From a virus, in IMG/VR virus record IMGVR_UViG_3300005264_000081, positions 1 to 26,448 of that record: a DNA stretch of 26,448 bases; one strand, given 5' to 3'. Shown here piece after piece: positions 3,077-26,133 of the stretch (position 1 is its first letter; each line of letters opens with the position of its first letter). Position numbers and translations under genes: made by a program. The notes under the pieces are model-generated. The model was not told the origin of the DNA. It worked only from the letters and a program-made list of their open reading frames with translations, and did not search any database.

Positions 3077-3286
3077 ATGAAAAATTTCAAAGAGTATTAT
3101 GAACAAGAAATATTAAGTGAAGGTAAAACTTATGAAATGGGTGCAGATAAAATAAGACAAGCTATGGCAGAATCTGGTAAAATGAAGGTCAGTGAACTTA
3201 TGAAGTATATGAAAACAAGATATGCTGGAAAATATGATGTAAAATTAGCAAGAGAAAATGCTAAAGAATTAGTTGCAGATATGTAA
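3077..3286 (+). CDS. Small protein with capsid-targeting-like leader (type A, 69 aa)
   Basis: The N-terminus MKNFKEYYEQEILSEGK matches the type A leader shared by several genes here. L-S-E before G would suit a T4-type prohead protease (hydrophobic-x-E). Removal would leave about 53 residues, mostly predicted helix, with SELMKYMKTRYAGKYDVK and a short basic-acidic end. By analogy with T4 internal proteins I infer packaging inside the head. The mature domain is not recognised. The ribosome binding site AAAGGATAAGAAA is well placed, and the gene has its own TTGACA-N17-TATATT promoter. A palindromic element lies directly downstream. Confidence 0.75.
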   Translation: MKNFKEYYEQEILSEGKTYEMGADKIRQAMAESGKMKVSELMKYMKTRYAGKYDVKLARENAKELVADM

Positions 3287-3434
3287 AATATTTAATGAGT
3301 CCAGTATAAAAAGGTCAAAAATCTGTCATTACTAGGAGTTTACGACGAAGTAATCCCAATATTTCAGCCTACGAAAATCTGAGATTGCTTCACTATGTTC
3401 GCAATGACACCTTTTTATACCAGACTCTTTAATA
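3287..3434. repeat. REPIN-like palindromic element with long inverted ends
   Basis: The gap between two leader genes holds a large imperfect palindrome. Outer arms GAGTCCAGTATAAAAAGGT (3297-3315) and ACCTTTTTATACCAGACTC (3409-3427) are near-complementary, and the pairing extends into the flanking A/T. Inside are two inverted units, 3324-3357 (TGTCATTACTAGG...GAAGTAATCCC) and 3381-3409 (GAGATTGCTTCAC...GCAATGACA). Read on the minus strand, the second unit starts TGTCATTGCGAAC and ends GAAGCAATCTC. That is the style of a dispersed palindromic repeat common in bacterial chromosomes. The interior is visibly richer in G+C than its surroundings. It contains no gene. It is probably a host-derived mobile repeat, though it could also act as a transcription terminator. 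Confidence 0.7.
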
Positions 3435-3452
3435 TTAAAAACTGAATAAAGC

Positions 3453-3481
3453 TTGACAAGCAATAATATATTGATTATATT
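3453..3481 (+). promoter_or_regulatory. Sigma70-like promoter before the second leader gene
   Basis: TTGACA at 3453-3458 and TATATT at 3476-3481 are 17 bases apart, 30 bases before the ATG at 3512. It restarts transcription just after the palindromic element. The box sequences and spacing equal those of the promoter at 3013. Confidence 0.7.
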
Positions 3482-3511
3482 ACATTTGTGAGTTAATTAA
3501 AAATAAAGGAA

Positions 3512-3988
3512 ATGAAAAATTTTAAAGAGTATTACGAAGAAACAATGAATGAAGCTAGATCATATGAACAAGTATATTTTCATAGTCCATATCTTTGGAT
3601 AGCTAATGGACCAGGAAGTGGAAGTGGACCAGTTTTTAAAACTGATGTTGCAAAATTAGCTTCATATAGTGATAATCCAGAATATAAAAAAGAACCTAAT
3701 ACAGCTAAACAATTATTAGATTATTTTAAGAATGTTAAACCATTTGCTAAAAAAGATAATCAAAGAATGTTTAAAATTCCATTTTATCATAAAATGGATA
3801 AAACTGAAAATTTTGATATTTGGTGGGAAGTTTTACCAGAATATAAAAGAAGTGAAAAAGAATACAATGGAGATAAACCAGTTAAACCAACTAAATATAT
3901 TTGGTTAGTAATTGGTAAAGATAGTAAATATTCTTACTTGAACTTCTTTCATACTAAGAATGAAGCAAAAGGATATTCACAGATATAA
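3512..3988 (+). CDS. Protein with capsid-targeting-like leader (type A, 158 aa)
   Basis: The leader is MKNFKEYYEETMNEARS, with M-N-E before A as a likely prohead-protease site. The remaining ~144 residues include a GPGSGSGP turn, an aromatic patch around NFDIWWEVLPEYKR, and a strand-rich end (YIWLVIGKDSKYSYLNFF). The domain is not recognised; it looks globular alpha/beta and has no membrane segment. I infer a head-packaged internal protein. The ribosome binding site AAAGGA sits only one base before the ATG, unusually close. An internal ATG at 3545 falls exactly at the M of M-N-E, so a leaderless product is conceivable. uvsX follows after 24 bases. Confidence 0.75.
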   Translation: MKNFKEYYEETMNEARSYEQVYFHSPYLWIANGPGSGSGPVFKTDVAKLASYSDNPEYKKEPNTAKQLLDYFKNVKPFAKKDNQRMFKIPFYHKMDKTENFDIWWEVLPEYKRSEKEYNGDKPVKPTKYIWLVIGKDSKYSYLNFFHTKNEAKGYSQI

Positions 3989-4012
3989 ATTAATTATAGG
4001 AGAAATAAACCA

Positions 4013-5131: not shown

Positions 5132-5139
5132 TATTTTAT

Positions 5140-5168
5140 TTGACTTCTCTAATAAAATTAGTTATATT
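5140..5168 (+). promoter_or_regulatory. Sigma70-like promoter upstream of the tRNA
   Basis: TTGACT at 5140-5145 and TATATT at 5163-5168 have a 17-base spacer, the same layout as the promoters at 3013 and 3453. It lies between uvsX and the tRNA. It overlaps an inverted repeat, so it may be controlled. Confidence 0.6.
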
Positions 5169-5179
5169 GTTAGAGAAGT
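5143..5179. terminator. Inverted repeat after uvsX (terminator or operator)
   Basis: ACTTCTCTAA (5143-5152) and TTAGAGAAGT (5170-5179) form a perfect 10-bp stem with a 17-base loop, starting 12 bases after the uvsX stop. There is no following T-run, so it is a poor intrinsic terminator. Its overlap with the spacer and -10 box of the promoter at 5140 makes an operator role equally likely. Confidence 0.4.
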
Positions 5180-5304: not shown

Positions 5305-5634
5305 ATGGAAAATGATGTAATAAGTGATATACTAAAGAATGCACAAGACGGTAATGTTTATGATTTTAAAGAGAAAGTTAAATCATATATTCAAGATGAA
5401 GTGGATGTAAAGGGTAAAGAATTTATTGATAGTGGAGATGCTTTTGATAGTTTTGTTAATAGTGATAGATTTCAAAATGAATCATCAATTGACATGATAG
5501 ATATTGCTACAAATCTTTATGATCAGTTCAAACTTAGCAAAAATAGAGATGAAATGATTAAGAAAGAATTAACTAAAAAGAAATATTCATTAAAAGATAT
5601 TTCTAAAATTATGAAAATGATTAGTAAATTATAA
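5305..5634 (+). CDS. Small acidic hypothetical protein (109 aa)
   Basis: The 109 residues are mostly predicted helix. MENDVISDILKNAQDGNVYD leads into a FKEKVKSYIQDEVDVKGKEF helix, an acidic middle, and a Lys-rich end (KKKYSLKDISKIMKM). The opening loosely recalls short head-core or hypothetical proteins of T4-like phages (D-I-I-x-x-I followed by an amphipathic helix), but I cannot name it. There is no capsid-targeting leader and no membrane segment. It lies between the tRNA and a strong terminator, so it ends this transcription unit. Its ribosome binding site is AAGGAAATAATAAG. Confidence 0.7.
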   Translation: MENDVISDILKNAQDGNVYDFKEKVKSYIQDEVDVKGKEFIDSGDAFDSFVNSDRFQNESSIDMIDIATNLYDQFKLSKNRDEMIKKELTKKKYSLKDISKIMKMISKL

Positions 5635-8491: not shown

Positions 8492-8492
8492 A

Positions 8493-8867
8493 ATGCAAAC
8501 AATTAGAGAATTTATAGAAATAAATGAAGCTAAAATAGATGGTGATTGGAAATTAATTAGTAAAGTATCACAACAAACTGCTAGAGTAGTTAAATTACTT
8601 GAAAAACTACCATTAAACCCAAGTAAGTTATTTGATGAATTTAGACATATATTAACAAAAGATGAAAAAGATTTATTATCTTGGAAAGAAGCTGATAGCC
8701 CATCTAAAGCGATAATGATGAGTGATACTATTAAATTAAATAAAAAATATATAACGATAGAATTTAATCTTATGTATCATGGTAGATTTGGTAGAGTGAA
8801 TAGAATTGTAGAAAGATCATATAGATTAAAAGATAAAATGCTAAGGCCTGATGATGTTTTTAAATAA
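8493..8867 (+). CDS. Protein with capsid-targeting-like leader (type B, 124 aa)
   Basis: The N-terminus MQTIREFIEINEAK is the type B leader and is close to the M-K-T-Y-Q-E-F-I-x-E-A leader of T4 internal proteins. I-N-E before A is the expected protease site. The remaining ~111 residues start DGDWKLISKVSQQTARVVKL, continue with a helical Lys/Leu-rich region and end in strands (YITIEFNLMYHGRFGRVNRI). The mature domain is not recognised. It is wedged between gp6 and the discoidin-like gene. The ribosome binding site AAGGAATTATAAA lies within the end of gp6, so it is translationally coupled to gp6. I infer a head-packaged protein although all neighbours encode baseplate parts. Confidence 0.75.
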   Translation: MQTIREFIEINEAKIDGDWKLISKVSQQTARVVKLLEKLPLNPSKLFDEFRHILTKDEKDLLSWKEADSPSKAIMMSDTIKLNKKYITIEFNLMYHGRFGRVNRIVERSYRLKDKMLRPDDVFK

Positions 8868-12134: not shown

Positions 12135-13090
12135 TGCCAATAAAACATAAATTACAATATCCAAGAGAAAGTGAATTTAAAAAATATAGAGCTTATTTAA
12201 AAATTACTATGAAAACATTTAAAGAATCTAGTGATGGATTTGCTAATGTTAAAAATATGGTTGATGGATATGGTGATAAATTGAAAGGTGTTGTTAGTAA
12301 TATTATGTCTTGGATACCTGGAGATGATAAAAAAGCTAATATATTAAGTAGTGATGAGCAAAATACTTTACTTAGTTCTAAATATAAAGATACTGGATAT
12401 GGAAGTGAGGGAGTATTTGAATTTGAAACATACATACCAGCAGATTTTGGAATTAGTCTTGCAGGTGATTGGTCATCAACTGAACTTATAAGTACTGAAA
12501 AAATATTAGAAACTGCAATTAAAGGTGGTGCTAAACTATTTGGTGTTGGAAGCTTTGTTAGTAATCAATATTCATTATTAAAGAATCAATTACAATATAA
12601 TACAAATCAAGCATTAACACCATTAGAAATAAAACAATTTAAACCAAGCTTCTTAGATACTACTTTAAATTTTGATTTTAGACCTAAAACTAGAGATGAA
12701 ATGATTGCTGTTGATAAAGCATTAAGAATTTTAAAACAAGGAACTATTCCTAATTCTAAAAATGGTGAGTGGTTTGATTATCCAGCATTATTTGATATTG
12801 AAGTAATGATAAAGGAAAAAGATAATGGAGTTGCTTTAGTAACTAATAAACATAAAAGCACAACAGATTTATTCACTAATTTTAAAGATTTAGGAATGGC
12901 AAGTTTTAACATGACTTCTGATAGTGGAAATAATGTTGATTTGAAATTTAGGGAAGATGGTGCTTTACAAGTTTATAAAGTATCAATGTCATTTACTTCA
13001 ACTAAGAAATATTATGAAGAGCCAGATAACGGAACAAGTGAAAAAATGACTGTTAGTAAAAGAATTGATAAAATAATGGAGTCAAAATAA
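12134..13090 (+). CDS. Baseplate tail-tube initiator/cap, gp48/gp54-like
   Basis: This 318-residue protein is probably the adaptor joining the baseplate hub to the tail tube. It has the family segment TNQALTPLEIKQFKPSFLDT (about 157-176) followed by LNFDFRPKTRDE, which resembles the N-x-A-x-x-P...F-x-F-x-P-(K/R)-(S/T)-x-x-E block of gp48/gp54. An N-terminal EFKKYRAYLKITMK and a C-terminal strand run (ALQVYKVSMSFTSTKKYYEE) complete a tube-like fold. T4 gp48 (364 aa) and gp54 (320 aa) are similar in length. Only one is seen in this window, so one protein may do both jobs. It overlaps its neighbours by one base on each side. Confidence 0.75.
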   Translation: MPIKHKLQYPRESEFKKYRAYLKITMKTFKESSDGFANVKNMVDGYGDKLKGVVSNIMSWIPGDDKKANILSSDEQNTLLSSKYKDTGYGSEGVFEFETYIPADFGISLAGDWSSTELISTEKILETAIKGGAKLFGVGSFVSNQYSLLKNQLQYNTNQALTPLEIKQFKPSFLDTTLNFDFRPKTRDEMIAVDKALRILKQGTIPNSKNGEWFDYPALFDIEVMIKEKDNGVALVTNKHKSTTDLFTNFKDLGMASFNMTSDSGNNVDLKFREDGALQVYKVSMSFTSTKKYYEEPDNGTSEKMTVSKRIDKIMESK

Positions 13091-13563
13091 TGTCATTAGA
13101 AATATTTTCAGATTATCTTGAAGAAATAGAATTAGATATTTCTCAATATAATAAAGATAATAATATTAAATACAACAATAAGCAACCAATAGTTTTTAAT
13201 CTCAAAAATTTACAATCATTTTCTGGAATAGACTTTACAGAATTACATGAATATTGTGATAATTATTTTATAAATAATGATGATAGATTTGATAAGATTT
13301 CTAATAAAATTTATGAAACAACTGCATTTTGGTGGTTAATTCCACTTATAAACAATATTAGTTATTATGATATGCCATTAAGTGAAGTTAAATTGAAAGA
13401 ATTAGCTTTATATCTATATGAGAATGAGTATAAATATTCAAGTGAAGATATATATTATGAAAAGTTAAAAGAAGTGAATGATTTGAAAAGAGAAATTAAA
13501 GTAATTAAATCTGAGTATTTATATATTATACTTAGAAAAATATATGATTTTATGAAAGGATAA
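13090..13563 (+). CDS. 53: Baseplate wedge subunit, gp53-like
   Basis: The diagnostic block is TAFWWLIPLINNISYYDMPL (about 78-97), matching the (Y/F)WWxxLLxNxIxDPxxxPL pattern of gp53 wedge proteins, followed by a helical end with a coiled-coil look (EKLKEVNDLKREIKVI). The 157 residues are near the usual size (T4 gp53 is 196). gp53 links wedges in the baseplate together with gp6 and gp7. It starts in a one-base overlap with the gp48/54-like gene. Its last codons and the following ribosome binding site are duplicated at 14339-14375 in front of another gene. Confidence 0.82.
   Translation: MSLEIFSDYLEEIELDISQYNKDNNIKYNNKQPIVFNLKNLQSFSGIDFTELHEYCDNYFINNDDRFDKISNKIYETTAFWWLIPLINNISYYDMPLSEVKLKELALYLYENEYKYSSEDIYYEKLKEVNDLKREIKVIKSEYLYIILRKIYDFMKG
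13534..13557 (+). repeat. Gene-53 3' end segment, copy 1
   Basis: The 24 bases AGAAAAATATATGATTTTAT plus GAAA, encoding the end of the gp53-like protein, recur exactly at 14339-14362. Similar AAAGGATAAA leader sequence follows in both places. Here they are coding; at 14339 they are not. Confidence 0.85.
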
Positions 13564-13567: not shown

Positions 13568-13816
13568 ATGAAAACAGTAAGAGAGTTTGATATGGCTTAT
13601 TATAGATCTCTAGATAGAATGAAACAATCAATGTATCTAGAAGATTTTATTGGTAGAAATTTTGCTGTGTCTGAGACTAAAAGAAATGTAACACATGTTA
13701 TAAGTATAAATGATAGTAAAAGTGAATTAACTAAATTATCTAAATCATTAGAAAAAATTGGATTTAATACATCTTTTGGAAAAGAAGATGGAATGATATG
13801 CTTGAAGATTAATTAA
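13568..13816 (+). CDS. Small protein with type B capsid-targeting-like leader (82 aa)
   Basis: The start MKTVREFDMAYYRSLDRMKQ keeps the M-K-T-x-R-E-F core of the type B leader but lacks an obvious x-N-E protease step; MYLED (about 24-28) is the nearest candidate. The rest alternates strands and a helix: VTHVISINDSKSELTKLSKS, then LEKIGFNTSFGKEDGMICLK. This gives a small beta-alpha-beta look resembling ferredoxin-like folds. No function is assignable. It follows gp53 with a GAAAGGATAAAAAA ribosome binding site and precedes two further leader genes. Confidence 0.65.
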   Translation: MKTVREFDMAYYRSLDRMKQSMYLEDFIGRNFAVSETKRNVTHVISINDSKSELTKLSKSLEKIGFNTSFGKEDGMICLKIN

Positions 13817-13824
13817 AAAAGGAG

Positions 13825-13862
13825 AAATAAAATGATTACAATTAGAGAATTTGTGAATGAAG
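13825..13862 (+). repeat. Leader module, copy 1 (38 bp)
   Basis: This 38-base segment spans the end of the ribosome binding site spacer, the start codon and the leader MITIREFVNE. It is identical to 14369-14406, while the genes diverge completely right after it. This shows the leader can move as a DNA cassette. Confidence 0.9.
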
Positions 13863-14281
13863 ATTATGTGTATGGAATAAGAGGAGGATGGGAAGGAGAA
13901 TGGGATGGTCCAAAAAACTTTCAGAAAATGTATGATAAATTAGAATCTAGCGGGTGGGTTATATATAGTAATAGAGTAATAACAAAAAAAATTAAGTCAA
14001 TTGAATTTTTTTTAAAATTTGGGAGGAATTCAACTAAAATAATATCGATTTACGCTAAATATAAGAATGATTATAGACAAATTGGGGGTACTTATTTTTC
14101 TAAGAATAGTAACAGTGTTGAGTATGCACAAGGAATTAGTGCTGGAAGTGATTTAACTTGGTATATGAAAGATAGTAATATAATAGACTCACTTAAAAAA
14201 GTGGAGGAACGTTATAAAATTAAATGGACTGATTGGGGTAAAACACCTTCTGTTAAATTAAATGATATAACTAAAGTGTAA
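13832..14281 (+). CDS. Protein with capsid-targeting-like leader (type B, 149 aa)
   Basis: The leader MITIREFVNEDYVYG has V-N-E before D as a possible cleavage site. The mature part is rich in Trp, Gly and Tyr (RGGWEGEWDGPKNFQKMYDK near the front), then has strands VIYSNRVITKKIKSIEFFLK and a C-terminal helix ending EERYKIKWTDWGK. The domain is not recognised. Codons 1-10 and the preceding seven bases are identical in DNA to those of the gene at 14376, including the following AG, giving a 38-base match. The ribosome binding site is AAAAGGAGAAATAAA. Confidence 0.72.
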   Translation: MITIREFVNEDYVYGIRGGWEGEWDGPKNFQKMYDKLESSGWVIYSNRVITKKIKSIEFFLKFGRNSTKIISIYAKYKNDYRQIGGTYFSKNSNSVEYAQGISAGSDLTWYMKDSNIIDSLKKVEERYKIKWTDWGKTPSVKLNDITKV

Positions 14282-14338
14282 GTAAAATGAAATAAATAAA
14301 GAATATATAGTATTAATTTATTTATTTTAATAATACTC

Positions 14339-14362
14339 AGAAAAATATATGATTTTATGAAA
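14339..14362 (+). repeat. Gene-53 3' end segment, copy 2 (non-coding)
   Basis: An exact copy of 13534-13557 sits in the gap before the gene at 14376 and is followed by its AAAAGGATAAATAAA ribosome binding site. The rest of the 94-base gap is A/T-rich sequence without a gene. It marks a segmental duplication of the gene-53 end. Confidence 0.85.
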
Positions 14363-14368
14363 AAGGAT

Positions 14369-14406
14369 AAATAAAATGATTACAATTAGAGAATTTGTGA
14401 ATGAAG
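14369..14406 (+). repeat. Leader module, copy 2 (38 bp)
   Basis: This is an identical copy of 13825-13862, covering the RBS spacer, ATG and leader MITIREFVNE. The gene at 14376 is therefore a chimera: a gene-53-derived upstream part, a leader shared with 13832, and a distinct body. Confidence 0.9.
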
Positions 14407-14838
14407 GAACTTTTGCACCAGATATGGATAATGAAGTTGAAAGTGTAAATAAATCTATAATGAAGTATGCTAAAGTAAATGGAATGATGGAATATCCATT
14501 TATGTTTAAGACAGCAACCCCTCTTTTTAAGAAATTTAAAAGAGATTTATTTCATGGAGGTCATTGAGTTAAATCAGAGCCTAAAGATGCTGTTAGTAGT
14601 GCAATGTGGTTAGATAAACAAAAAAAACGGATGGGAAGTAACTTCTGAATATGATTATAAATATGAAGCAACACAAGGAACTTTTAATCCTGTGTCGTTT
14701 AGTTTATTTGTTTATATCAATAATGGTAAAGTATATTTAACTTGGGATGATATTTATTATAAAGTTAAAACAAAATTAATGGTAAAGGATAAGAAACTAT
14801 CAAATGAAATATTAGAATTATTCAATAAATTAAATTAA
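14376..14838 (+). pseudogene. Broken leader-bearing gene (type B), in-frame TGA plus frameshift
   Basis: The gene starts MITIREFVNEGTFAPDMDNE with V-N-E before G, and runs 63 residues to TGA at 14568-14570. Reading through, the frame continues VKSEPKDAVSSAMWLDKQ to a run of eight A's at about 14621-14628. If one A is removed the frame continues NGWEVTSEYDYKYEATQG and ends LELFNKLN at TAA 14836-14838. The intact product would have about 153 residues with Trp/Tyr-rich strands and a helical end like its relatives. Either the gene has decayed or the sequence has two errors; a TGG-to-TGA change and one homopolymer base would explain it. The first 63 residues may still be made. Confidence 0.65.
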
Positions 14839-14852
14839 AAAGGATGTAAATT

Positions 14853-15185
14853 ATAAAAAATTTCAAAGAATATTACGAACAAAGTATTGATGAAGCAACA
14901 CAGAGAGTAGATAAAATCAGAATAGATTTATATTCGTCAAAGGGCTCTAATGGGTTTACTAAGATAAATCCAAAAAAGTGGATGAAAGAAATAGAAGATT
15001 ATTTTTCAGATACAGATGAATTTAAACTAAGTATCGAAAATATAAATAAAGCTAAAAATTTTGTTGAATTGACTGGTGTTGGTAGTTTTGTAGGTGGACA
15101 TCCAATGATGGATGAAATTAGTAAACAAGCTATGAGTAATCCGGGTATGAGATTAGATTACGCTAAAGCATATTTTGTGAAATAA
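14853..15185 (+). CDS. Protein with type A capsid-targeting-like leader and ATA start (110 aa)
   Basis: The in-frame sequence from 14853 reads (ATA)-KNFKEYYEQSIDEATQRVD, an otherwise perfect type A leader with I-D-E before A. ATA stands where every relative has ATG. A ribosome binding site AAAAAGGATGTAAATT is correctly spaced, so either ATA is used as a rare start or a G-to-A change has occurred. The first in-frame ATG (14982) would remove the leader and 43 residues. The mature part has KINPKKWMKEIEDYFSDTDE, a helix, then a Gly-rich GVGSFVGGHPMMDEISKQ. Function unknown. It ends 4 bases before the hub gene. Confidence 0.62.
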   Translation: MKNFKEYYEQSIDEATQRVDKIRIDLYSSKGSNGFTKINPKKWMKEIEDYFSDTDEFKLSIENINKAKNFVELTGVGSFVGGHPMMDEISKQAMSNPGMRLDYAKAYFVK

Positions 15186-15189: not shown

Positions 15190-16317
15190 ATGCTATTAGA
15201 ATGTGTCATTAATGACAGAATATTTCCTTCAAATTCAATTGAAGGAGTAGTAATCAAAGAATCAATTCACTCTCAAATTATTGAGGGTGAATTGAATATT
15301 TTTGATTTCGCATTTATTGACCCTAAAGAAATATATGAAAGTGAAGAATATAAAGTTACATTTCTAGTATATGATATTCTTGAAGATGTTCAAAAAACTT
15401 TGACATTTTTAATATATGCAATAGAAGATGGAACTACTCAAGGTAACAATAAAATTACTTTAAAATTTTGTAGTTGGTATGCACCTGATTTATATTCAAA
15501 GACATTTACTAAATCTTATAATTCTACTAAGTACACAGACATCATTAAGAAGCTTTTAAAGACAAATAGAGTTGAAAGTGATATAATAGTTGAAAGTGAT
15601 AAGGGAGTTAATTTAATGCTACCTAATCAGTCGATTATAAAGAGTATTAGATATATGTTGAAACATAGTGTTGATGCTAGTAAAAGAGGTGGATATTTAG
15701 CATTCCCAGATTTATTTACTCAAAAGATGAATATTGTAAATTATAACTCAATGAATAAAGGTATCATTCAGAAATATGAAAAAGTATTATTAAATGATGC
15801 TGAGAATATGGAATATATTTCTAATATTACTAAGTTAGATATTATTCAAGAATTTGATATATTGAAATTGTTAGAAAAAGGAATAAATACTACTCTAACT
15901 ACTTTCAATTTTGATAATGGTAAAGTTGAGAAAGTTGATAATGATATAATACAACTTTTAAAGAATGAAGATGCAAGTTATAGTAAGATTTTAATGAATG
16001 AAAAATTTAATAATACTGATTATGGTAATAATGAAGGTGTATTATTCTCAAATAAAGATGAAATGAAAGCAATACTATCAAATAAACATTATGATATATT
16101 AAATAATAGTTTTAAACTTAGTGTTGGTGTGAATGGTGATTATGGAAGAAAGCTTGGTTGTATACTTCCATTAGTGATTTATAAATACGATAGTGATGGT
16201 GTAACTACTGATAATAAAATAAGTGGTGCTTATATTCTACAAGAAATAGAGCATAAAATATCAACTAAAGGTTATACTCAATCAATAATAATAAGTAAAA
16301 GTGGGATGGAAATATGA
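15190..16317 (+). CDS. 27: Baseplate hub protein, gp27-like
   Basis: The 375 residues have the layout of the gp27/gpD/VgrG-N hub fold. A starting beta-barrel (LLECVINDRIFPSNSIEGVV, IIEGELNIFDFAFIDP) is followed by the tube-like domain 1 strands (KVTFLVYDILEDVQKTLTFL). Next come LKFCSWYAPDLYSKTFTKSY and TDIIKKLLKT, typical of gp27-type proteins, and a second barrel ending AYILQEIEHKISTKGYTQSI. T4 gp27 has 391 residues. It forms the trimeric hub cup that holds the spike, and the OB-fold spike gene is two genes downstream. The stop TGA overlaps the ATG of the next leader gene. Confidence 0.82.
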   Translation: MLLECVINDRIFPSNSIEGVVIKESIHSQIIEGELNIFDFAFIDPKEIYESEEYKVTFLVYDILEDVQKTLTFLIYAIEDGTTQGNNKITLKFCSWYAPDLYSKTFTKSYNSTKYTDIIKKLLKTNRVESDIIVESDKGVNLMLPNQSIIKSIRYMLKHSVDASKRGGYLAFPDLFTQKMNIVNYNSMNKGIIQKYEKVLLNDAENMEYISNITKLDIIQEFDILKLLEKGINTTLTTFNFDNGKVEKVDNDIIQLLKNEDASYSKILMNEKFNNTDYGNNEGVLFSNKDEMKAILSNKHYDILNNSFKLSVGVNGDYGRKLGCILPLVIYKYDSDGVTTDNKISGAYILQEIEHKISTKGYTQSIIISKSGMEI

Positions 16318-16604
16318 AAAATTTTAAAGAGTACTATGAGCAAGTGAACGAAAGTAGTGAAGTGAATGAGGGTAGTAAAACAAAAGTAATAAAAGTATTT
16401 AAACATGAGTGGGCAGTAATAACAACAAGCTATACTACTCTAAGTTTCGATAATGAGTTTGTTAGAATATCTGTTAATATTGGATATAAGCCAGAATCTG
16501 GTATAGCACATTCATTTGAAAATGAGTCTGAAAAATTTAGTATTAATGATATGGGCTTAATAGAAGAATATATTAAAAAAATCAAAAAGAAATATTCTAA
16601 ATAA
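16314..16604 (+). CDS. Protein with capsid-targeting-like leader (type A, 96 aa)
   Basis: MKNFKEYYEQVNESSEVNEG contains two possible protease sites, V-N-E before S and V-N-E before G. The mature ~76 residues are KTKVIKVFKHEWAVITTSYT, strands VRISVNIGYKPESG, then a C-terminal Lys-rich helix (EEYIKKIKKKYSK). The strand-then-helix plan resembles the ends of the 14376 and 16874 products, without a nameable fold. The ATG overlaps the hub stop by four bases and the stop overlaps the next ATG, so it is embedded between hub and spike genes. Confidence 0.75.
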   Translation: MKNFKEYYEQVNESSEVNEGSKTKVIKVFKHEWAVITTSYTTLSFDNEFVRISVNIGYKPESGIAHSFENESEKFSINDMGLIEEYIKKIKKKYSK

Positions 16605-16873: not shown

Positions 16874-17179
16874 ATGAAAACGATTAGAGAATTTATAAAT
16901 AAATCAGATGAACAACTTATAGTAACATTTAAAGATCCAATGGGTAATCCTAAGAAAATAGGGACAAAATCTTTTGGATTTAAAGATGCATTAAGTAATT
17001 TTGAATGGGCTTTAAAAGATAATGATAGGAAAATAATATATAGAGAAGGTGGTGGGAATAAAAGAGTTAGTGATTATTTGAAAGATGTTATTGCTATGGC
17101 TTCTATAGATGCTAAAAATAATAATGATTTTGCTAAAAATCTTAACAAACTGATAAATATAAAATCTAAAGGTAAATAA
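16874..17179 (+). CDS. Protein with capsid-targeting-like leader (type B, 101 aa)
   Basis: MKTIREFINKSDEQ is nearly the T4 internal-protein leader, but the expected Glu of I-N-E is Lys, so cleavage there may fail; S-D-E three residues later is an alternative. The body has a short sheet (LIVTFKDPMGNPKKIGTKSF), helices (FKDALSNFEWALKDNDRK, SDYLKDVIAMASIDAK) and a Lys-rich end. It is not recognised. The ribosome binding site is AGAGGAATAAATT, and the gene ends 15 bases before the first sheath gene. Confidence 0.7.
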   Translation: MKTIREFINKSDEQLIVTFKDPMGNPKKIGTKSFGFKDALSNFEWALKDNDRKIIYREGGGNKRVSDYLKDVIAMASIDAKNNNDFAKNLNKLINIKSKGK

Positions 17180-17194: not shown

Positions 17195-19878
17195 ATGAAA
17201 GCACAAATACCTCAAATAAACATAAAAGAATCATCTAGAGAAAATAGAACTTTACCTAATGTGAAAGTAGGCTCTATTTTACCAGCTAATACTGGATATA
17301 GAAATTATTCTTATATTATAGAAAATGAAGATCAATTAGTTTCTGTTTTTGGAAAACCTACATCTAGTAACTATAAATTTTGGTGGAATATTTACAATTA
17401 TTTACAGTATGCTAATGAAGGTATTTATGTAATTAATCCAACTTCTGATGACAAAAACTATTCAATGAAATTAACTGGAAGTAGTATACTAGTTAATAAT
17501 ATTGAAAATAGTGATTTATATAATACAGATTTAGCTTCCAATCTTATATTTAATAATACTTTAACTAGTCATAGTTTAGAAGTATATAATAGATATGTAG
17601 AAAATGAAGATAAATTAGCTATTACTGTTTGTGGTGCAGAAGATGCATGGGAAAATCCAATTACTAATGAAGAAATACCAATAATTAGAGATATTGGAGT
17701 TTATATTCATGAAGATGTATCTTCAATATATAGCAATAGTTATATATTAGATACTTATGTAGTTATTGATGAAGCTGTCTATAGTCATAATGGAGTTAGT
17801 GAAAGTTGTATTATATCTCTAGGAAATCAAACACATATTAAAGCTGGTGAAAATATAAACATAGATTATGCATCAATTAAAGTAGTTAATAGAATTGAAT
17901 CTAATAATTATAGAGTTGAAGATACTTTAATAGGGTTTCAATTTACTCTAATAATAGGTGATGGAACACCTGCTTATGGTGAGGTTGTTAAAGGTTCTGA
18001 TAGTGGTGTTACTGGAAAAGTACATCAAATAATTGGTAATTCAGTAATATTATATAATTTAACTGGAGATTTTGATAATAATGAAACTATACTAATCAAT
18101 GATGTTGCTAAAACAACTACGATAGCTAGTTTAACTTATCCAGCAACTCCAATATTCATATTAGGCGATAATCATCAATATTTAGAAGATGATGATATTA
18201 TTAAAATTCTTGATGACGATAATAATTATTTAATATCTTCACATAATTACGATAATGTAAATAATGTAACTGATATTATTATGACTAAGGAAGTTAGTTC
18301 TTATAATGAACTAACTTCTAGTGATAAATTAGTAATACAGTCAGATACTACAATGATAATTATAGATAATCCAGAAGAAGATTCAGTGAATTATATTACA
18401 TATCTTGGTGGTGAGTGGAATGATGCTAATATATTATCAGGTATTGATAAAGGAGTATTTATATTTTATAATATAAATACTCTCCAATGGGAAATTGACG
18501 AGAACTATTTTAATAATAATTCTCAATGCTATGTATTAAATAAAAATAAAGTATATAGTATAGAGAGAGATAATCCACCTTCGGAGTAAATAGAGGAATA
18601 ATAATCGTGATAGAATACGGACAAACAACACTTACAGAGGAAACTATAACAGCATTTCCTAGTAGTCAAAATATAGCAATTAAAGATTTTTATGAAAGTG
18701 ATATTATAATTAATAATACCATTAAAACATATAAAGATTTATTCATTAGTAAACCAGATTTTACTAATGGAGAATTTGCTATAATCATTTTCAAAAAAGA
18801 TGAAACAGAAAAATATATTTTAGAAGAAACTTATATACTAAAATATGACCAAAAGTCAGAAATTGAAGTATATAACGATTCAGATTTTATATACTTAAAA
18901 TTAAATTCTAATACTGAAAAAGTTGATACTAAAGATTATTCAATAGAAGAATTAACAATACAAGTTGATACCACTCAAGATTATAGTGATATTGAGCATT
19001 ATTCAAGACAAGAGTTAATTAATTCTAGTAATATATTCTTAGATAAGGATTATTTTACAGTTGATTATTTATTAGGGTTTAAATGTAGTTCTCTTGAAGA
19101 TAGTTACGACTTTGATATAATGACTAATATAGCTAAAGAAAGAGGGAATACCATAGCTTTAAATAGTGTTTGGGAAGAAAGTAATTACTTAGGTAAAACA
19201 GAAAGTGAAATACTAACTCAAATAACTAATGATTTCGGATGTCAAGATTTTAGATATAATGCTAAAGTAAAAGTATTTAATGATTATATGTCAATGTTTG
19301 GTAATATGAAATTACAATATGATTTTTATAATGAGAATTATATTTGGTTACCTATAATTGGTGATGTTGCTGGTAGTTTTGTTGAAAATGAAAGTATCAC
19401 CGGTGTTGGGTATAATACAATATTCAAAAATACTGATAGACTATTGTTTAATATTACAGATATTCAGAATAAGAAAGACTTAAATAGAAATGGTATTAAT
19501 CTAGTAACTTACAATAATTTAGCTCAAGCTATTATATTTGATAGTATTACATCAACACAAGATATGGATAGTATATTCAGAGAATTACAGAAAAGAAAAA
19601 CTCTAAATATGATTAAGAATGATTTAAGAAGATTTTTCTTTAGTCAATTACTAAAACTACTTACAAGTGATAGAGTTAGTGATATAAATACTTTACTAGA
19701 TAACTATTTGAATAAACTATACAAGAATGGTAAAATTACTAGAGGTTATAGTAAAGATGTTCAATTATCCGGCAGTGTGATGAATATTAGTCTTAAATTT
19801 ACTTTTACTGATATTCTTAGAGTAGTTAATATATCAATAATTGTAAATGAAAGTGGTGTGGAAATAAGAGAAATATAA
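17195..19878 (+). pseudogene. 18: Tail sheath paralogue 1 (gp18-like), split by a -1 frameshift
   Basis: The first part (17195-18589, 464 aa) has the sheath N-terminus: a TGYRNYSYIIENEDQLVSVF opening, FGKPTSSNYKFWW, and inserted beta modules (GEVVKGSDSGVTGKVHQIIG). The second part, frame 1 (GTG candidate start 18607), has the conserved C-terminal sheath domain: FLDKDYFTVDYLLG, WLPIIGDVAGSF, RNGINLVTYNN and a final beta/helix domain. Between them the coding frame moves by -1 near 18577-18583: CCACCT-TCGGAG-TAA would read on as P-P-F-G-V-N-R-G if one T were added. Joined, the product would have about 894 residues. Alternatively the GTG at 18607, preceded by AGAGGA, makes a separate C-terminal half. 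Sheath subunits polymerise around the tail tube and contract. Confidence 0.75.
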
Positions 19879-19884
19879 GTAGTT

Positions 19885-19898
19885 TATAAATATAAATA
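19885..19898 (+). promoter_or_regulatory. Doubled late promoter box before 19921
   Basis: Two overlapping TATAAATA octamers (19885-19892 and 19891-19898) follow the sheath 1 stop. The TTATAAATATAAATAAAA context is almost the same as at 5708, arguing against chance. It would drive the leader gene at 19921 and sheath 2. Confidence 0.6.
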
Positions 19899-19920
19899 AA
19901 AATAAAAAAAGGATGAAAAA

Positions 19921-20352
19921 ATGAAAAATTTTAAAGAGTATTACGAACAAGTGAATGAAAGTAAAGAATTGAATGAGTCGACTAAAATAAGATTCAATTT
20001 CGATACTAAATCTTTCCATAATAAGCAATTTAATTCAATCAAGAAGTCATTGAGTAAAGTAGATTTTAGTAAATATGAAAATTATTTCACTTCAATTTCG
20101 ATATTAGGGAGCGGTAACTCTGAATATAAAGAAAGTTTAGATGAATATATATATAATTTGAATTGTGAAGTAAAACTGTCTAATAAAATTGGTGATAAAC
20201 TAAATATACTGATATTACAAGATGGATTAAATGAAACTGATATACTAGTAGTAAAAGATAGTAATATGAAAGTACTTTATGAGACAGGTATTACATTTGT
20301 TAAAGCTAGTGATCACTGGTTAAATGACATTATTAAATTGATACATATATAA
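19921..20352 (+). CDS. Protein with capsid-targeting-like leader (type A, 143 aa)
   Basis: MKNFKEYYEQVNESKELNES has two candidate sites (V-N-E before S, L-N-E before S). The leader is closely similar to that at 16314. The mature ~123 residues start TKIRFNFDTKSFHNKQFNSI and alternate strands and helices (YFTSISILGSGNSEYKESLD, KLNILILQDGLNETDILVV). A C-terminal DHWLNDIIKLIHI gives a compact alpha/beta look. No catalytic motif is visible. The ribosome binding site is AAAAAAAGGATGAAAAA behind a doubled late promoter box. It lies between sheath paralogues 1 and 2. Confidence 0.75.
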   Translation: MKNFKEYYEQVNESKELNESTKIRFNFDTKSFHNKQFNSIKKSLSKVDFSKYENYFTSISILGSGNSEYKESLDEYIYNLNCEVKLSNKIGDKLNILILQDGLNETDILVVKDSNMKVLYETGITFVKASDHWLNDIIKLIHI

Positions 20353-20388
20353 AGAAATAATTAACTTAACATAAAAAAGGAATAAAAT

Positions 20389-22931
20389 ATGACAAAATAT
20401 AGTCCTTCAATAGAATTTGAAGAAACTGAAATATCTATTCCATCACAAGCAACAGAAACTGGTATCATTACTGGTATGGTTTTAAATGCAGATATGGGAT
20501 ATGGTAAAACAATAACTGATATATATTCAGTTAGTGAGTTATTAGAACAGTTTGGGAAGCCGACAGATTTTAATTATAAGAATTGGTTCAATGCAAGAGA
20601 TTATTTAATGCAAGGTAATCACTTAAAAGTAGTAAGACCAGTACCAACTAATGCTAAGAATAGTTCAATGCAATTAAATGGTGTTTCGCATTTAAGTCTA
20701 GATAGTGATTGGTATAATGGAACAGATGTAAAAAATAGAACTAAACCAATAGAAGCAATGTATAATAAAGATGTTGCTGAATTTAATTTGGAAAGCAATT
20801 TTACCACTACAAATAAATTAGAAATAATTAATAGATTTGTAACAACTAAACAAGATTTATCAATCGCTGTTTGCTCTAGTGCTGATCATTATGAAGAGCC
20901 GATGTTTTTTGATGAAATTGGAATTATTAGAAACTTCAACCAAACACAAGCACCACTAAAACCAGTTAAAGATGAGAGATATACTATATTAAGAAAAACT
21001 GAAGCAGTTAATATTACAGCTGGATCAAGCTCTCCTGATATAATTGTGTCTCCTAAAGATTTAACTAATGAGTTATCAATTAATGATTATATTAACGATG
21101 GAACTAGTCATTTACTAATTACTGCTATTGATTATGGAGTTACTACAGTAGATGTTACTACAATATCAGTTGCAGAAGGAACATCAAATGATTCATCAAT
21201 TGAAATTAGCTATTTATTAGGAGATTGGTCAACTAGTAATTTTGATAATGGAGATTTAGTAGAGTATGATTTAGATACTACTAATTGGGTTATACAAGGT
21301 TCTCCAGCAGATAAATACTATATTGAGTTATTAGGTAAAGTATATCGCTGGGATGATCCTAATTGGGTGGTTAGTGAAGATGAAAAGTATTTGCCTGTTG
21401 ATAGTAATGGAGATGGTAAAGCAGAATATGCTGTTAAGGATATATTTGATAGTTCTTTACTAAATTCTGATAATTCAATTAAATCATTCAAAGATATTTA
21501 TAAAGCTAATTTAGATTTTGTAGATGAATATGATTTGGTAGACTCAACAAAATTATTAAAAGATAATGTTTTAATATTCGTATTTAAGAAAAATGATATA
21601 AGTGGTAAATGGCAAATAGTTGAGCAACATTTAGGATCAAGTGTAAGAACTGCAAAAGATGACAATAACAATAGTATTTTCTTAGAAAAAGTAGTATTTC
21701 AAGAATCTAATTATATTTATGTTAAAACTGGTGAAACTAATACTCATACAGTAACTAATGTAGGTAATATAATAACAGCTACAGATTTGGAATTAAAAAA
21801 CTTTCAAATAGGTGAGAAAATTAAATTCATAGATACTAGTGGAGCTGAAGATATAATAAAAATAGCTAGTATCACTAATATGTCATATGCTGGAGATGAT
21901 ACTATAATTACTGTTAATTCTAATCCAACATTAAGCGACTCAACAATAACTAAAATTACAGATGAAGTTTCAGGTAAAGTATCAACTAATTATAGTAAAT
22001 ATGGTAATCCAAGAAGTGCTAGTTATGATGACAATTTATCTTATCATAATTCAGAAGGGTTTTCAATTACAGATTTAATTATTTATGATTTATCTCCACA
22101 AGATAGTGATAGTGTTACAATTACAGATTATGCTAATTTATCAACAACTGATATAGAATCAAGTGCTGATGTATTCTTAGACAAGGATAATGTTGATGTT
22201 CATTATTCTTAGGACAAACAGAAGATGAAATTACTGAAAGTTTAGTTGAAGAATTTGGTAATCAAAGAGCTAATTTATTTAGTGGTACTTTTACACAGTT
22301 TAGTAAGTATACAGGTGTTAATCAATGTTCAATGAAGTATTATGAAGATACTTATAATAACAAGTTTAGATGGTTGACTTATGCAGGTGATATTGCTAGA
22401 ATGATGAAAAGACAAGATAGTACTAAAGGTGTTTGGTTTCCAATAGCTGGTTCTCCAGATGGAACTATTAACAATCACATTAAAACTGCATTTATACCTA
22501 AAGAAGATTTTAGGGAAGAATTAAATAAAAATGCAATCAATACAATGTATATTAATTCAAGTATGTCTAATCCAATATTGTTCTCAAACTTAACTAGTTA
22601 TAGAACTGAAGGACTTTTCCAAGTTCTTTCATATCGTTTGATGCTTAATAAGATTGAAACATTTGTTAAGAATAATCTATTTCCACAATTGTTTAAATTT
22701 AAGTCTGATAATATGAAGAAAAGAATTAAAGATTTAATTGAGCCATTCTTAAATAATATTAAGAACTCAGATGGTCTTGAAAGTTTTGACTTAATATTCC
22801 CAGTAATTAAAGGTGAAAAATCTAATGAGATGAATATAATGTTGAAAATTACTCCGTCTGGGGTGATTGAACATTTTTATGTGAAATTAGAAATGACAGA
22901 GCAAGGTTATTCTTTAGAAGAAACTGTATAG
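20389..22931 (+). pseudogene. 18: Tail sheath paralogue 2 (gp18-like) with a -1 frameshift
   Basis: The opening frame (20389-22212, 607 aa) has the sheath N-terminus (NADMGYGKTITDIYSVSELL, EQFGKPTDFNYKNWFNARDY, LKVVRPVPTNAKN) and long inserted beta modules. It stops at TAG 22210-22212 just after FLDKDNVDVHY. In the -1 frame the protein continues FLGQTEDEITESLVEEFGNQ, then WFPIAGSPDG, a helix run and a GLESFDLIFPVIKG end typical of gp18 C-termini, to TAG at 22929-22931. One missing T near 22206 restores a product of about 847 residues. No canonical slippery heptamer is visible. The portion after the shift is fully open and conserved, so the lesion is recent, a sequencing error, or recoded. Confidence 0.82.
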
Positions 22932-22947
22932 AATAATGTATTTTTAG

Positions 22948-22971
22948 AGTACTCAATTTATTTTGAGTACT
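22948..22971 (+). terminator. Possible hairpin terminator after sheath 2
   Basis: AGTACTCAA (22948-22956) and TTGAGTACT (22963-22971) form a perfect 9-bp stem with a 6-base loop, 16 bases after the sheath 2 stop. The following TTTATAAAG is only weakly T-rich, so termination is likely but not certain. Confidence 0.5.
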
Positions 22972-22981
22972 TTATAAAGTA

Positions 22982-22989
22982 TATAAATA
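22982..22989 (+). promoter_or_regulatory. Late promoter box before the beta-helix gene
   Basis: An exact TATAAATA just after the hairpin, 21 bases before the ATG at 23011, with the same AAAAATAAAA downstream context as at 19885. Confidence 0.5.
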
Positions 22990-23010
22990 AAAATAAAAAG
23001 GATAAATAAG

Positions 23011-23593
23011 ATGAAAAAGAATTTTAAAGAATATTATGAAGAGACGCTGGGTATTATATTAACTGAAGGTAAAAAGAAATATGAATTATTAAAAACTGAT
23101 ACTAAAAAATATGAGAGGTAAAACACTTTATAGAATTAAATACCATAAAGATATATCTAAATATAATGTGAAATCTGGTGATTTGGGTGGTTATATTCAG
23201 AATGAGAAAAATTTAAGTAAAAAAGGTGATTGTGTGGTTTTAGGTAATGCTTTAGTTTTTGAAGGATCTTTAGTTACAGGTAATGCTTTAGTTTATGGAG
23301 ATTCTACAATTAGAGGTAATGCTAAGATATCTGATAATGTAGAAATTTGGGATTCTCATATTAGTGAAGATGTAGAAATTTCAGGTAAAGCTAAAATTGA
23401 AAGTGATGGTAATCGCCCATCAAATATTTCTGGTAATGTTAAAATTTATGATAATGCTAAGATAATAAATGGTAATATTAGTGGTAAATCTAAAGTGTAT
23501 GGTAATGGGGAAGTTAATAGAGGAACTTTAAGTGGTTTTGCTAAAATATTTGGGAATATGAGACTTTTAGGTGAATTACAAGAGAAAAATTAG
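23011..23593 (+). pseudogene. Leader-bearing hexapeptide beta-helix protein, frameshifted
   Basis: ATG at 23011 starts a type A leader, MKKNFKEYYEETLGIILTEG (L-T-E before G), and continues KYELLKTDTKKY before stopping at TAA 23119-23121. A +1 shift at the A6 run (23104-23109) joins it to the frame read from 23111 (MRGKTLYRIKYHKD). The joined sequence matches the well-known K-Y-E-L-L-x-x-D-T...G-K-T-L-Y-R-I family start. It continues with GDLGGYIQNEKNLS and many hexapeptide-like turns (GNALVFEGS, GNALVYGDS, GNAKISDN, GNVKIYDNA), which form a left-handed beta-helix. Removing one A gives one protein of about 193 residues. Otherwise a leaderless 160-aa product from 23111 remains. Confidence 0.72.
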
Positions 23594-23607
23594 AGGGATA
23601 TAATAAA

Positions 23608-24261
23608 ATGAAAAAGAATTTTAAAGAGTATTATGAGCAATTGAATGAGGGTGATTTGAATGAAACTAAAAGTTATGATGATATAAAACATGAGCATATA
23701 AGAAATTATGCTAAAGATGTTGTTAATTCATCTGATGATAGATTTTATGCACAGGCGTTTAGTTCTGAGTTTTCGTTAAAAATTAAAAGTGACTATTCTT
23801 GGTCAGGTGTAACAATAGACAAACATGGAGCATTAGGTTGGTATAGAGGAAATAGTACAAATTCAAATGTAACGGGAAATAAAACAAAAGAAAGTATATT
23901 AAGTGATTTAAAAATACTACTCACTCTCTCTAAAAAGAAAAAAGTAAAAGAAAATTTACATAAAACAGACATTGAAGAATATGTTACTGATTGTATTAAA
24001 TGGGTTAAGAAAAATGTGATTGATGGAAAGAAATTAGTAAAAGAAAAGAATAAACAAGGCAAAAATTTTGTGAAAGTGTGGAAAAAAGCAGATTTAGAAT
24101 TAGATAAAGTATATGATTTCTTAGGTGAAAACAAAAGAGAGATTGATGATTTATTAAATATGGCTGTTCATGATGTTGGTTCCTTAAGGTCATCAATAAT
24201 ATCTTTACAAAATAGTTTAATTAGATTTAAAAATGAGTTATTAAAACAAGTAATACATTAA
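23608..24261 (+). CDS. Protein with capsid-targeting-like leader (type A, 217 aa)
   Basis: MKKNFKEYYEQLNEGDLNET has L-N-E before G and L-N-E before T. It is the longest intact leader-bearing protein here. The front half has DDIKHEHIRNYAKDVVNSSD and a beta segment (EFSLKIKSDYSWSGVTIDKH, GALGWYRGN). The second half is strongly helical and Lys-rich, with a coiled-coil-like stretch (DIEEYVTDCIKWVKKNVIDG, LDKVYDFLGENKREIDDLLN). No enzyme motif is recognised. The basic character would suit packing with DNA in the head. Its ribosome binding site is AGAGGGATATAATAAA; sheath 3 follows after 13 bases. Confidence 0.75.
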   Translation: MKKNFKEYYEQLNEGDLNETKSYDDIKHEHIRNYAKDVVNSSDDRFYAQAFSSEFSLKIKSDYSWSGVTIDKHGALGWYRGNSTNSNVTGNKTKESILSDLKILLTLSKKKKVKENLHKTDIEEYVTDCIKWVKKNVIDGKKLVKEKNKQGKNFVKVWKKADLELDKVYDFLGENKREIDDLLNMAVHDVGSLRSSIISLQNSLIRFKNELLKQVIH

Positions 24262-24274
24262 AGGAATTATGTAA

Positions 24275-25840
24275 TTGTCAGTTATAATCAATGAATATAT
24301 AAGAAACATAAAATCAATAGAAGATACAGAATTCGACTTATATTGTGGATTTATTTTAAATTCTGAAACTGGTTATTGTAATTATCCATTAAATGATTTA
24401 TCTACATTGGGTGATCCAGCATTAGATAATTATCAAAAATGGTATGTTGCATATGACTTTTTAAAATATTCTCAAAATTTAAAGATTATAAGACCTATAA
24501 ACATAGCAAATATCGAGAATTGTAGTCTAACCTATGATAATACTAGCCTTGCCATTAGAAGTGGAATTAAACAGTGTTTTAACCCAGTTATAGCAAAGAC
24601 TACGCTTGATACTCTAACAGTTACAGAGAAAATCAAAGTAATTGCTAGAGATGTTAGAAGTTTTGATGAAGATTATAATATAGCAGTTAGTATTTGTTCA
24701 AGTTCTGCTAATTATAATAAGTCAATATTCACAGATGTTGATTTATCAATATTTGGAAAATCATTAATTGATTATGATGGTAATTTGAAAACTTACTTAG
24801 ATTTAACAGATGGAACTCCAGATTTTGATAATAATGAATTTGTTATAATAGTAATTGAAATAGTTAATGGTTTATATGAATTAAATGAAAGTGCTACTTT
24901 ATCATATACTGATGAAAATAAAGATTTAGAATTAATATATGTTAAAACTGGTGATTCATTAACTAAAGTTGAAACATTTGAAAGTGAATTAGATGATAAT
25001 ATTTTTGTTGATACTGTTGGAAGTTCTGATTTCACATTAGTACAAGCAGATTATGAAAGTGCAATAAATATTTTAGAAAATGATGATACAGTAATAAGTA
25101 TATTATCATTTGATTTTGAAGATAGTTTAAATTTAGTTGGTAGCATATCTAATAAAGCAATTTTTGTAAGTCCAACTGATGTTAGTAGGTATATTCAAGA
25201 AACAGATATTGGTGGAAAACTACTAGAAGATTTTAAAGTAAATAGCTCATATTATACTACTCATAAAGATGGTACTGTAATAATTGCTAATATGTATAGA
25301 GATTGGGATAAATATAATTATAGATATTCTTGGTTTCCTATGAATGGAATTTATGCTGGTTTATATTTCGCTAAAGAATTAAAGTTACCAATTGATTTAG
25401 ATGATTATGTTACACAGTCAAAATTATTATTTAAACCAACAGAAGCACAAAGAAAAAGTTTAATTAGTAATAATATAAATACAGTTATAAATAGAAATGG
25501 TAAAAATCTAGTATATGGCAATAAAATTTTTCATAGTAAGCTAGTTATAAAAGATGTATATAATCATTTTATAGTTGAAGAATTAAAACATAGATTTTTA
25601 GAAATTAAAAATAACTATTTAACTATCAATAGTAGGGAAATAAATATTGTTAGAGAAATGGTTTACAATGATATAGAATTAGTATTAAAAAGATATTATG
25701 GTAGTATTAGTAATTATGGATTGAATTATGTTACTAATGGTGGTATAATAAATTTTTATATAACAGTATTTCTACAAAATGCAGTTGATAACTTTGTTGT
25801 TGATGTAGATTTTAATTTAATATATGATAAAAGAAAATGA
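24275..25840 (+). CDS. 18: Tail sheath paralogue 3 (gp18-like), short form
   Basis: This uninterrupted sheath protein of 521 residues is shorter than paralogues 1 and 2 (about 894 and 847 if joined) because it lacks most inserted modules. Shared features are an N-terminal NSETGYCNYPLNDLSTLGDP segment, NLKIIRPINIANIENC, a linker module (YLDLTDGTPDFDNNEFVIIV) also present in both others, SYYTTHKDGTVIIANMYRDW, RYSWFPMNGIYAG, NRNGKNLVYGN and a closing beta domain. The start codon is TTG at 24275 with an AAGGA ribosome binding site nine bases upstream; the ATG at 24269 is followed at once by TAA. The TGA stop overlaps the next ATG. It is possibly a minor or specialised sheath. Confidence 0.8.
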   Translation: MSVIINEYIRNIKSIEDTEFDLYCGFILNSETGYCNYPLNDLSTLGDPALDNYQKWYVAYDFLKYSQNLKIIRPINIANIENCSLTYDNTSLAIRSGIKQCFNPVIAKTTLDTLTVTEKIKVIARDVRSFDEDYNIAVSICSSSANYNKSIFTDVDLSIFGKSLIDYDGNLKTYLDLTDGTPDFDNNEFVIIVIEIVNGLYELNESATLSYTDENKDLELIYVKTGDSLTKVETFESELDDNIFVDTVGSSDFTLVQADYESAINILENDDTVISILSFDFEDSLNLVGSISNKAIFVSPTDVSRYIQETDIGGKLLEDFKVNSSYYTTHKDGTVIIANMYRDWDKYNYRYSWFPMNGIYAGLYFAKELKLPIDLDDYVTQSKLLFKPTEAQRKSLISNNINTVINRNGKNLVYGNKIFHSKLVIKDVYNHFIVEELKHRFLEIKNNYLTINSREINIVREMVYNDIELVLKRYYGSISNYGLNYVTNGGIINFYITVFLQNAVDNFVVDVDFNLIYDKRK

Positions 25841-26133
25841 GAAAAAATGAATTTTTAGAGTATTATGATCAAATAAATGAGAGTGAAGAAGGATTAAATG
25901 AAAAAATAATGAGTGAAGAAGAAGCTAAAGTAATAGAAACTTTTTTGAAAGGATCTAATATTAAAACATTTGATGTAAGAATATTAGATATTGCTGGTAA
26001 ATATTGGAGTTTAATAATGAACAAAATGAAAGATTATTATGATAGTGATGTAACTAAATTATTAAAAAATGGATTAAGTAGAATATCTAATGAAAAAGGT
26101 GAAATAATATTTACTTTTAAATTAAAACAATAA
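25837..26133 (+). CDS. Protein with divergent capsid-targeting-like leader (98 aa)
   Basis: MRKNEFLEYYDQINESEEGL keeps the pattern of the type A leader (K-N-x-x-x-E-Y-Y-x-Q) with substitutions, followed by I-N-E before S and L-N-E before K. The remaining ~77 residues include a helix (SEEEAKVIETFLKGSNIKTF), a strand-helix with YWSLIMNKMKDYYD, and an end (NEKGEIIFTFKLKQ). It is not recognised. The start overlaps the sheath 3 stop by four bases, so it is translationally coupled to the sheath gene. Confidence 0.7.
   Translation: MRKNEFLEYYDQINESEEGLNEKIMSEEEAKVIETFLKGSNIKTFDVRILDIAGKYWSLIMNKMKDYYDSDVTKLLKNGLSRISNEKGEIIFTFKLKQ

Follow-up and report, generated by a model that had tools for sequence, protein, structure and literature searches.

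The closest described counterpart of the genes analysed here is found in bacteriophage T4, whose internal proteins IPI-III carry a capsid targeting sequence, MKTYQEFIAE/A (a slash marks the cut, or the predicted cut, throughout; Repoila 1994 and Mullaney and Black 1996, as cited in PMC12373910, PMC9391042 and PMC9026906). T4 genetics, as reviewed in PMC9026906, locates targeting mainly in residues 4 and 7 and processing in residues 8 and 10. The internal proteins reside in the head (PMC9026906), each of IPI-III has been reported to inhibit a type IV restriction enzyme (PMC12373910), a role in head assembly has been reported for IPIII (PMC9026906), and the leader has been suggested as a general means by which T4-like phages fill their capsids (PMC9026906). 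Here we analyse IMGVR_UViG_3300005264_000081, a 26.4-kb piece (26,448 nt, all of it referred to as the window) of an uncultivated virus with a GC content of about 25%, in which 13 small genes open with one of two related N-terminal leader types. Their sequences indicate that these leaders are very probably propeptides that target the capsid, as in the T4 internal proteins, and would carry exchangeable cargo into the head.

Other phages offer further comparisons. The T4 ADP-ribosyltransferase Alt is an injected head cargo cut by gp21 (PMC9026906). Virion enzymes of T4-like cyanophages, namely an S-adenosylmethionine (SAM) hydrolase, a cytidylyltransferase/NMNAT and an APH-like kinase, have been detected in virions by mass spectrometry (PMC10665884, PMC9602691) and begin with the same kind of leader, which the passages on these enzymes in the two papers do not mention. 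In the giant phages SPN3US and phiKZ, N-terminal propeptides cut at x-x-E are thought to target ejection proteins (PMC5694885). A text search of the open-access literature for MKTFKEF, MKTYQEF and similar leader strings returned no occurrence.

The window genes resemble IPI-III in having a short N-terminal leader with a hydrophobic residue 4, E6, an aromatic residue 7 and an x-E end, placed before unrelated cargo that varies between relatives of a T4-superfamily phage. Unlike T4, which has four leader genes in 169 kb and keeps IPI-III in two ip loci, the window has 13 in 26 kb, scattered among tail genes and known here from the genes alone, and its leaders are of two types and about 10-22 residues long, compared with 10 residues in T4. 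The cyanophage enzymes differ in their recognisable enzyme cargo and in being few per genome; Alt differs in that its own start is not among the top leader scores of T4, and the window has no ADP-ribosyltransferase; the propeptides of the giant phages, mostly longer than 100 residues, are of another sequence and lineage. The tag itself is of a known kind. What is new is the number of leader genes and their scatter among tail genes in one fragment, the presence of two leader types, and the demonstration that, throughout the superfamily, the leader serves as a cross-phage predictor of core proteins and virion proteins. Injected phage proteins reach the host ahead of any phage gene expression, and they are hard to find because their cargo parts share no sequence. 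If the leader score holds, packaged and probably injected proteins could be listed from sequence alone, and this fragment would be among the richest single sources of candidates.

Two related leader types on 13 small genes

All 13 leader genes picked out in an earlier note on this DNA are present (Table 1). The first type, MKNFKEYYE (for example, MKNFKEYYEQVNE), opens the genes at 3077, 3512, 14853, 16314 and 19921 and, with one extra residue, those at 23011 and 23608; the gene at 25837 has a divergent form of it, MRKNEFLEYYD. The second type, MxTIREF (for example, MITIREFVNE), opens the genes at 8493, 13568, 13832, 14376 and 16874. A degenerate DNA pattern for MK[NTSI]FKE[FY] has eight matches in the window, one of which (at 12209) falls within another gene, against 0.20 expected from dinucleotide shuffles (0 of 100 shuffles reach eight); the corresponding pattern for MxTIREF has five matches against 0.08 expected. 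Every one of the 13 leaders has a hydrophobic residue 4 and an aromatic residue 7, the positions common to both types, three of them once the register is moved by one or two residues.

As the earlier note had claimed, most of the leaders show a hydrophobic-x-E step: followed by A, G, S, D, T, N or K, it occurs within residues 8-25 of 11 of the 13, compared with 12% of the 18-residue windows taken downstream (binomial p = 4e-9). The claim that the sharing is limited to the leader also held, since the cargo parts are unrelated, save that those of 16874 and 19921 match weakly over 34 residues (E = 0.003). The description of the genes as placed one by one is right for most of them, which stand singly, and fails for the run of four at 13568-14853 and for the pair 3077/3512. 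Alignment-free structure predictions are low in confidence, with predicted local distance difference test (pLDDT) scores of 36 for 13832 and 56 for 3512.

Leader-like starts in T4 and related phages

A score matrix trained solely on five distinct window leaders ranks gp61.1, IPI, IPIII and IPII first to fourth among the 1321 ATG-started frames of at least 50 residues in T4. With a matrix from the TIREF type alone, IPI-III fall within the T4 top five, and with one from the other type plus the two leaders of L007, the nearest relative of the window, gp61.1 and IPI lead the ranking. The gp61.1 protein, which begins MKTFKEFIKE and has the best leader score in T4, is annotated as hypothetical (NC_000866, 18966-19130) and is on this evidence a candidate fourth internal protein.

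When the window-leader matrix was applied to 80 portal loci of T4-superfamily phages (portal identity about 31-36%), it gave 45 matches, against 0 in reversed DNA. Nearly all of these are either the gp21 protease (MKLISEYVEN...) or an open reading frame (ORF) of about 65 residues between the portal and gp21 genes (MKTFKELRE..., MKTFQEIREA...), and this ties the leader to the prohead core. A similar picture comes from the cyanophage S-CREM2, whose virion proteins are listed by mass spectrometry in Table 3 of PMC10665884: the four best-scoring of its 199 genes all encode proteins on that list, namely the protease, the cytidylyltransferase, gp136 and the SAM hydrolase (p = 0.002), and the same kind of start is visible in gp13 (MKDLHSFLTE) and in the APH-like kinase of the virion (VKRFDAFLTE). 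The NMNAT of S-SCSM1, detected in the virion according to PMC9602691, begins MKSFLQFLKEAA, that is, MKSFLQFLKE/AA. The attribution of the leaders to the T4 internal-protein kind, made in the earlier note, is strongly, if indirectly, supported by the T4 ranking, by the gp21 and core-region matches in relatives and by the published virion proteome; searched in related phages, the profile finds IPI-III and gp61.1, gp21 with its neighbour, and S-CREM2 virion proteins. Separately, gp12-gp15 of S-CREM2 (OR473000, 7704-13331) form a block detected in the virion according to that list, with a kinase and a nuclease annotated as Cas9 among its products; the leaders of gp13 and gp14 are clear, and those of gp12 and gp15 are possible.

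A pattern search of viral contigs for MK[NTSI]FKE[FY] starts found many leader genes, some of them in runs (seven in 5.4 kb of contig L149). Leader-bearing enzymes among them comprise an ADP-ribosyltransferase (L131:6037-6816, E = 1e-23), an activity shared with T4 Alt, as well as an adenylate kinase (L109:9768-10355), a SAM lyase (L151:91-579) and a cytidylyltransferase-like protein (L096:10631-11449). Because records of 80-250 kb hold 0-4 matches each, 13 leader genes in 26 kb are unusually dense; given runs such as that in L149, the density by itself is not unique.

Junctions between leader and cargo

The YdcK-like cargo of 23011 is the only cargo in the window for which relatives were found; a search for phage homologues of the cargo of 3512, 13832, 23608 and the L007 leader gene returned none. 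In other phages the YdcK-like cargo occurs leaderless, and these homologues start (MNKKFELLLDDT..., LKYKLKDQHT...) exactly where the 23011 leader ends (...GIILTE/GKKKYELLKTDT...). In a SAM-lyase family to which the S-CREM2 virion protein of the list cited above belongs, the spacer between MKTFKEF and the cargo differs by 0, 3 or 10 residues, and the junction [IL]-x-E/SSLSR is invariant despite this variation. Both the 23011 junction and the fixed SAM-lyase junction fit a removable leader consisting of an address, a spacer and a cut site.

Cargo turnover and putative regulatory signals

The nearest relative found is L007, a 6.5-kb contig recovered through its portal, which is 84-86% identical to that of the window. 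No further close relatives were found by gp6 or UvsX in viral contigs or by the portal in genome contigs, and searching with an exact codon pattern of MKNFKEYYE added none. The leader protein that L007 encodes directly after its portal gene, MISFNEFFTRILNE/S, is a different one, its cargo showing no relation to that of 3077 or 3512; a second leader gene, MIKFEELYNKINEMA, lies upstream. Judging from this comparison, cargo turns over at a fixed post-portal site. Traces of recombination are seen at the 13832-14376 slot, where the first 30 nt of the two leader genes are identical and a relic of the gp53 gene sits just upstream of 14376.

The sequence TTGACA-N17-TATATT occurs only twice in the window, against 0.16 expected, and both sites, strong promoter-like sequences of the sigma70 type, directly precede the post-portal leader genes amid late genes (Table 1). 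The only exact site of this form in L007 (5925-5953) is likewise 36 bp away from the leader gene that follows it. These matches to the consensus promoter suggest that 3077, 3512 and the L007 leader gene may also be transcribed early by the host polymerase. The T4-late-promoter-like sequence TATAAATA occurs 27 times on both strands of the window against 17 expected, an excess that is only suggestive, and some of its sites precede gp6 (5708, 5714), 19921 (19885, 19891) and 23011. Between 3077 and 3512 lies an element (3292-3432) flanked by a 24-nt inverted repeat (88%), the inside of which presumably resembles bacterial interspersed palindromic repeats; the intergenic stretch that includes it (3286-3511) has no plasmid match.

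Proposed mechanism and competing explanations

In the mechanism that we propose, leader positions 4 (F/I/V), 6 (E) and 7 (Y/F) would attach to the scaffold core of the prohead, and this binding would build each cargo protein into the prohead. The prohead protease would then cut the leader off at the hydrophobic-x-E site that closes the variable spacer, and the mature cargo would stay in the head until it is ejected with the DNA. Recombination at set positions between core genes would drive the turnover of the leader genes themselves. For this phage we infer, rather than observe, cleavage, packaging and injection. By analogy with T4 IPI-III, the cargo would act early on the host or its defences, as would the host-takeover or counter-defence factors put forward in the earlier note; our leading guess, with perhaps an even chance of being right, is that it acts against host defences. 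A more far-reaching combined picture, which we regard as possible though somewhat doubtful, is that the leader is an address tag used across the superfamily, that most gaps between late genes of this phage are cargo slots, and that a large share of its small genes are swappable, capsid-delivered payloads, some of them dual-acting. In that case 3077, 3512 and their L007 counterpart, with their strong host-type promoter, could act twice, first as injected proteins and then as early products, and a short N-terminal score alone could catalogue the proteins that thousands of T4-type phages inject.

Several observations weigh against the reading of the leaders as capsid-targeting propeptides. The fragment holds none of the gp21, gp22 and gp23 genes, and no head-maturation gene at all (in relatives gp21 comes after the portal), and a search for a contig of the same phage with these genes did not find one. 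The cleavage motif is missing from 2 of the 13 leaders, those of 13568 and 16874, and is present at the same positions in 7 of 17 non-leader ORFs of the window; because other N termini carry it this often, the contrast with them is weaker (Fisher p = 0.02), and the motif alone is moderate evidence. None of the cargo matches in Pfam, PHROGs or PDB sequences suggests a function. Among the 26 non-structural S-CREM2 proteins on the published virion list, most do not score with the strict matrix, and the shift over all of them is not significant (Mann-Whitney p = 0.07); for most of the other proteins detected there, as tail and shell parts, low scores are expected. In the piece of S-SCSM1 that was scored, the protease and NMNAT alone stand out, with NMNAT outscored by one unrelated ORF. 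Finally, not all 13 leader genes need be functional, because three look damaged. The first leader codon of 14853 is ATA instead of ATG, and its mechanically called ORF therefore begins only at 14982; the frame of 14376 ends after 63 codons, open frames go on in other registers, and the gene is probably truncated or shifted; the leader ORF of 23011 has 36 codons, and the cargo resumes in a different frame from 23111.

A head-assembly role for some of the leader proteins is the main rival to action against host defences. In its full form, which we consider rather unlikely, the leader does target the prohead core, but most of the proteins serve head assembly through core filling or size control and are not injected effectors. 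Such a role would suit the same leader type on gp21 and on the adjoining ORF of about 65 residues in relatives, both likely core parts, and the head-assembly role reported for T4 IPIII (PMC9026906); moreover, in the relative L126 a leader protein has matches to PHROGs under the names 'virion structural' and 'internal head protein'. Unlike structural parts, however, the cargo differs from gene to gene and swaps between close relatives, and elsewhere the leader precedes enzymes, as in the four contigs listed above.

The remaining explanations have far less in their favour. The leader could be mainly a DNA-level module, consisting of a ribosome site and the first codons and spread by recombination, with no targeting role for its protein sequence. 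Leader DNA and upstream bases do repeat (D1-D8), the uncommon codons GAG and TAC are common to the leaders, and the 30-nt identity of 13832 and 14376, with the gp53 relic upstream of the latter, points the same way. This is nevertheless very improbable, since the two leader types agree in protein positions and not in DNA, and the protein pattern is found again, written in other codons, in T4, cyanophages and elsewhere, gp21 and proven virion proteins being among its carriers. We give as little weight to an address for the tail or baseplate: although leader genes are interspersed among baseplate, hub and sheath genes, the tail genes of the window have no leader by matrix scoring, elsewhere in the T4 superfamily it is head-core genes, not tail genes, that carry the leader, and the T4 internal proteins are found in the head (PMC9026906). 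A chance likeness, or a by-product of an AT-rich genome, might be expected where codons for K, N, I, F and E abound, but the shuffle counts refute this explanation, to which we assign practically no probability; the matches also fall at gene starts, and the reversed DNA of relatives yields 0.

Genomic context

Homologues of gp2, gp20, UvsX, gp6, gp53, hub and sheath proteins (Table 1) place the phage in the T4 superfamily.

Table 1. Leader genes and other features of the window, in order of position.
Feature	Position	Strand	Leader	Size	Remarks
DNA-end-protector-like gene (gp2-like)	starts 544				protein-family match
portal gp20	1158..2999	+			phrog_213, E = 9e-101; 30% identity to T4 gp20
sigma70-type promoter-like site	3013..3041	+			TTGACA-N17-TATATT; 36 bp before 3077
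leader gene	3077..3286	+	MKNFKEYYEQEILSE/G	69 aa	residues 19-65 weakly match phrog_1460 (E = 1.9e-4)
sigma70-type promoter-like site	3453..3481	+			TTGACA-N17-TATATT; 31 bp before 3512
leader gene	3512..3988	+	MKNFKEYYEETMNE/A	158 aa	cargo without known relatives
UvsX	starts 4013				protein-family match
tRNA-Met	5206				
baseplate wedge gp6	starts 5750				protein-family match
leader gene	8493..8867	+	MQTIREFIEINE/A	124 aa	
tube cap	starts 12134				protein-family match
gp53	starts 13090				protein-family match
leader gene	13568..13816	+	MKTVREFDMAYY	82 aa	no clear cleavage motif
leader gene	13832..14281	+	MITIREFVNE/D	149 aa	
relic of gp53 gene 3' end	14330..14362	+			copy of 13525-13557, 94% over 33 nt
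leader gene	14376..14567	+	MITIREFVNE/G	63 aa	
leader gene	14853..15185	+	(I)KNFKEYYEQSIDE/A	110 codons	
hub genes	15190 and 16604				protein-family match
leader gene	16314..16604	+	MKNFKEYYEQVNESSEVNE/G	96 aa	
leader gene	16874..17179	+	MKTIREFINKSDE	101 aa	no hydrophobic-x-E motif
three tail-sheath paralogues	17195..25840	+			17195/18607, 20389/22332 and 24275, with leader genes between
leader gene	19921..20352	+	MKNFKEYYEQVNESKELNE/S	143 aa	
leader gene	23011..23593	+	MKKNFKEYYEETLGIILTE/G		YdcK-like beta-solenoid cargo; frame shifts near 23110
leader gene	23608..24261	+	MKKNFKEYYEQLNEGDLNE/T	217 aa	
divergent leader gene	25837..26133	+	MRKNEFLEYYDQINE/S	98 aa	

The portal has an acidic C-terminal extension, encoded at 2655-2996, that is common to L007 and absent in the T4 and C48C1 portals. 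The ORF at 5305-5634 was considered as a gp67-type core protein and ruled out by profile comparison (probability 0.7%). A zinc-ribbon-like ORF at 26150-26448, which runs off the end of the window, has a weakly leader-like start, MITFDLLYNRHFLEED. The tail-sheath paralogues lie in tandem (17195-19878, 20389-22931 and 24275-25840), and breaks at 18589/18607 and 22212/22332 leave the first two in two ORFs each; the latter break is apparently a deletion plus a frame change.

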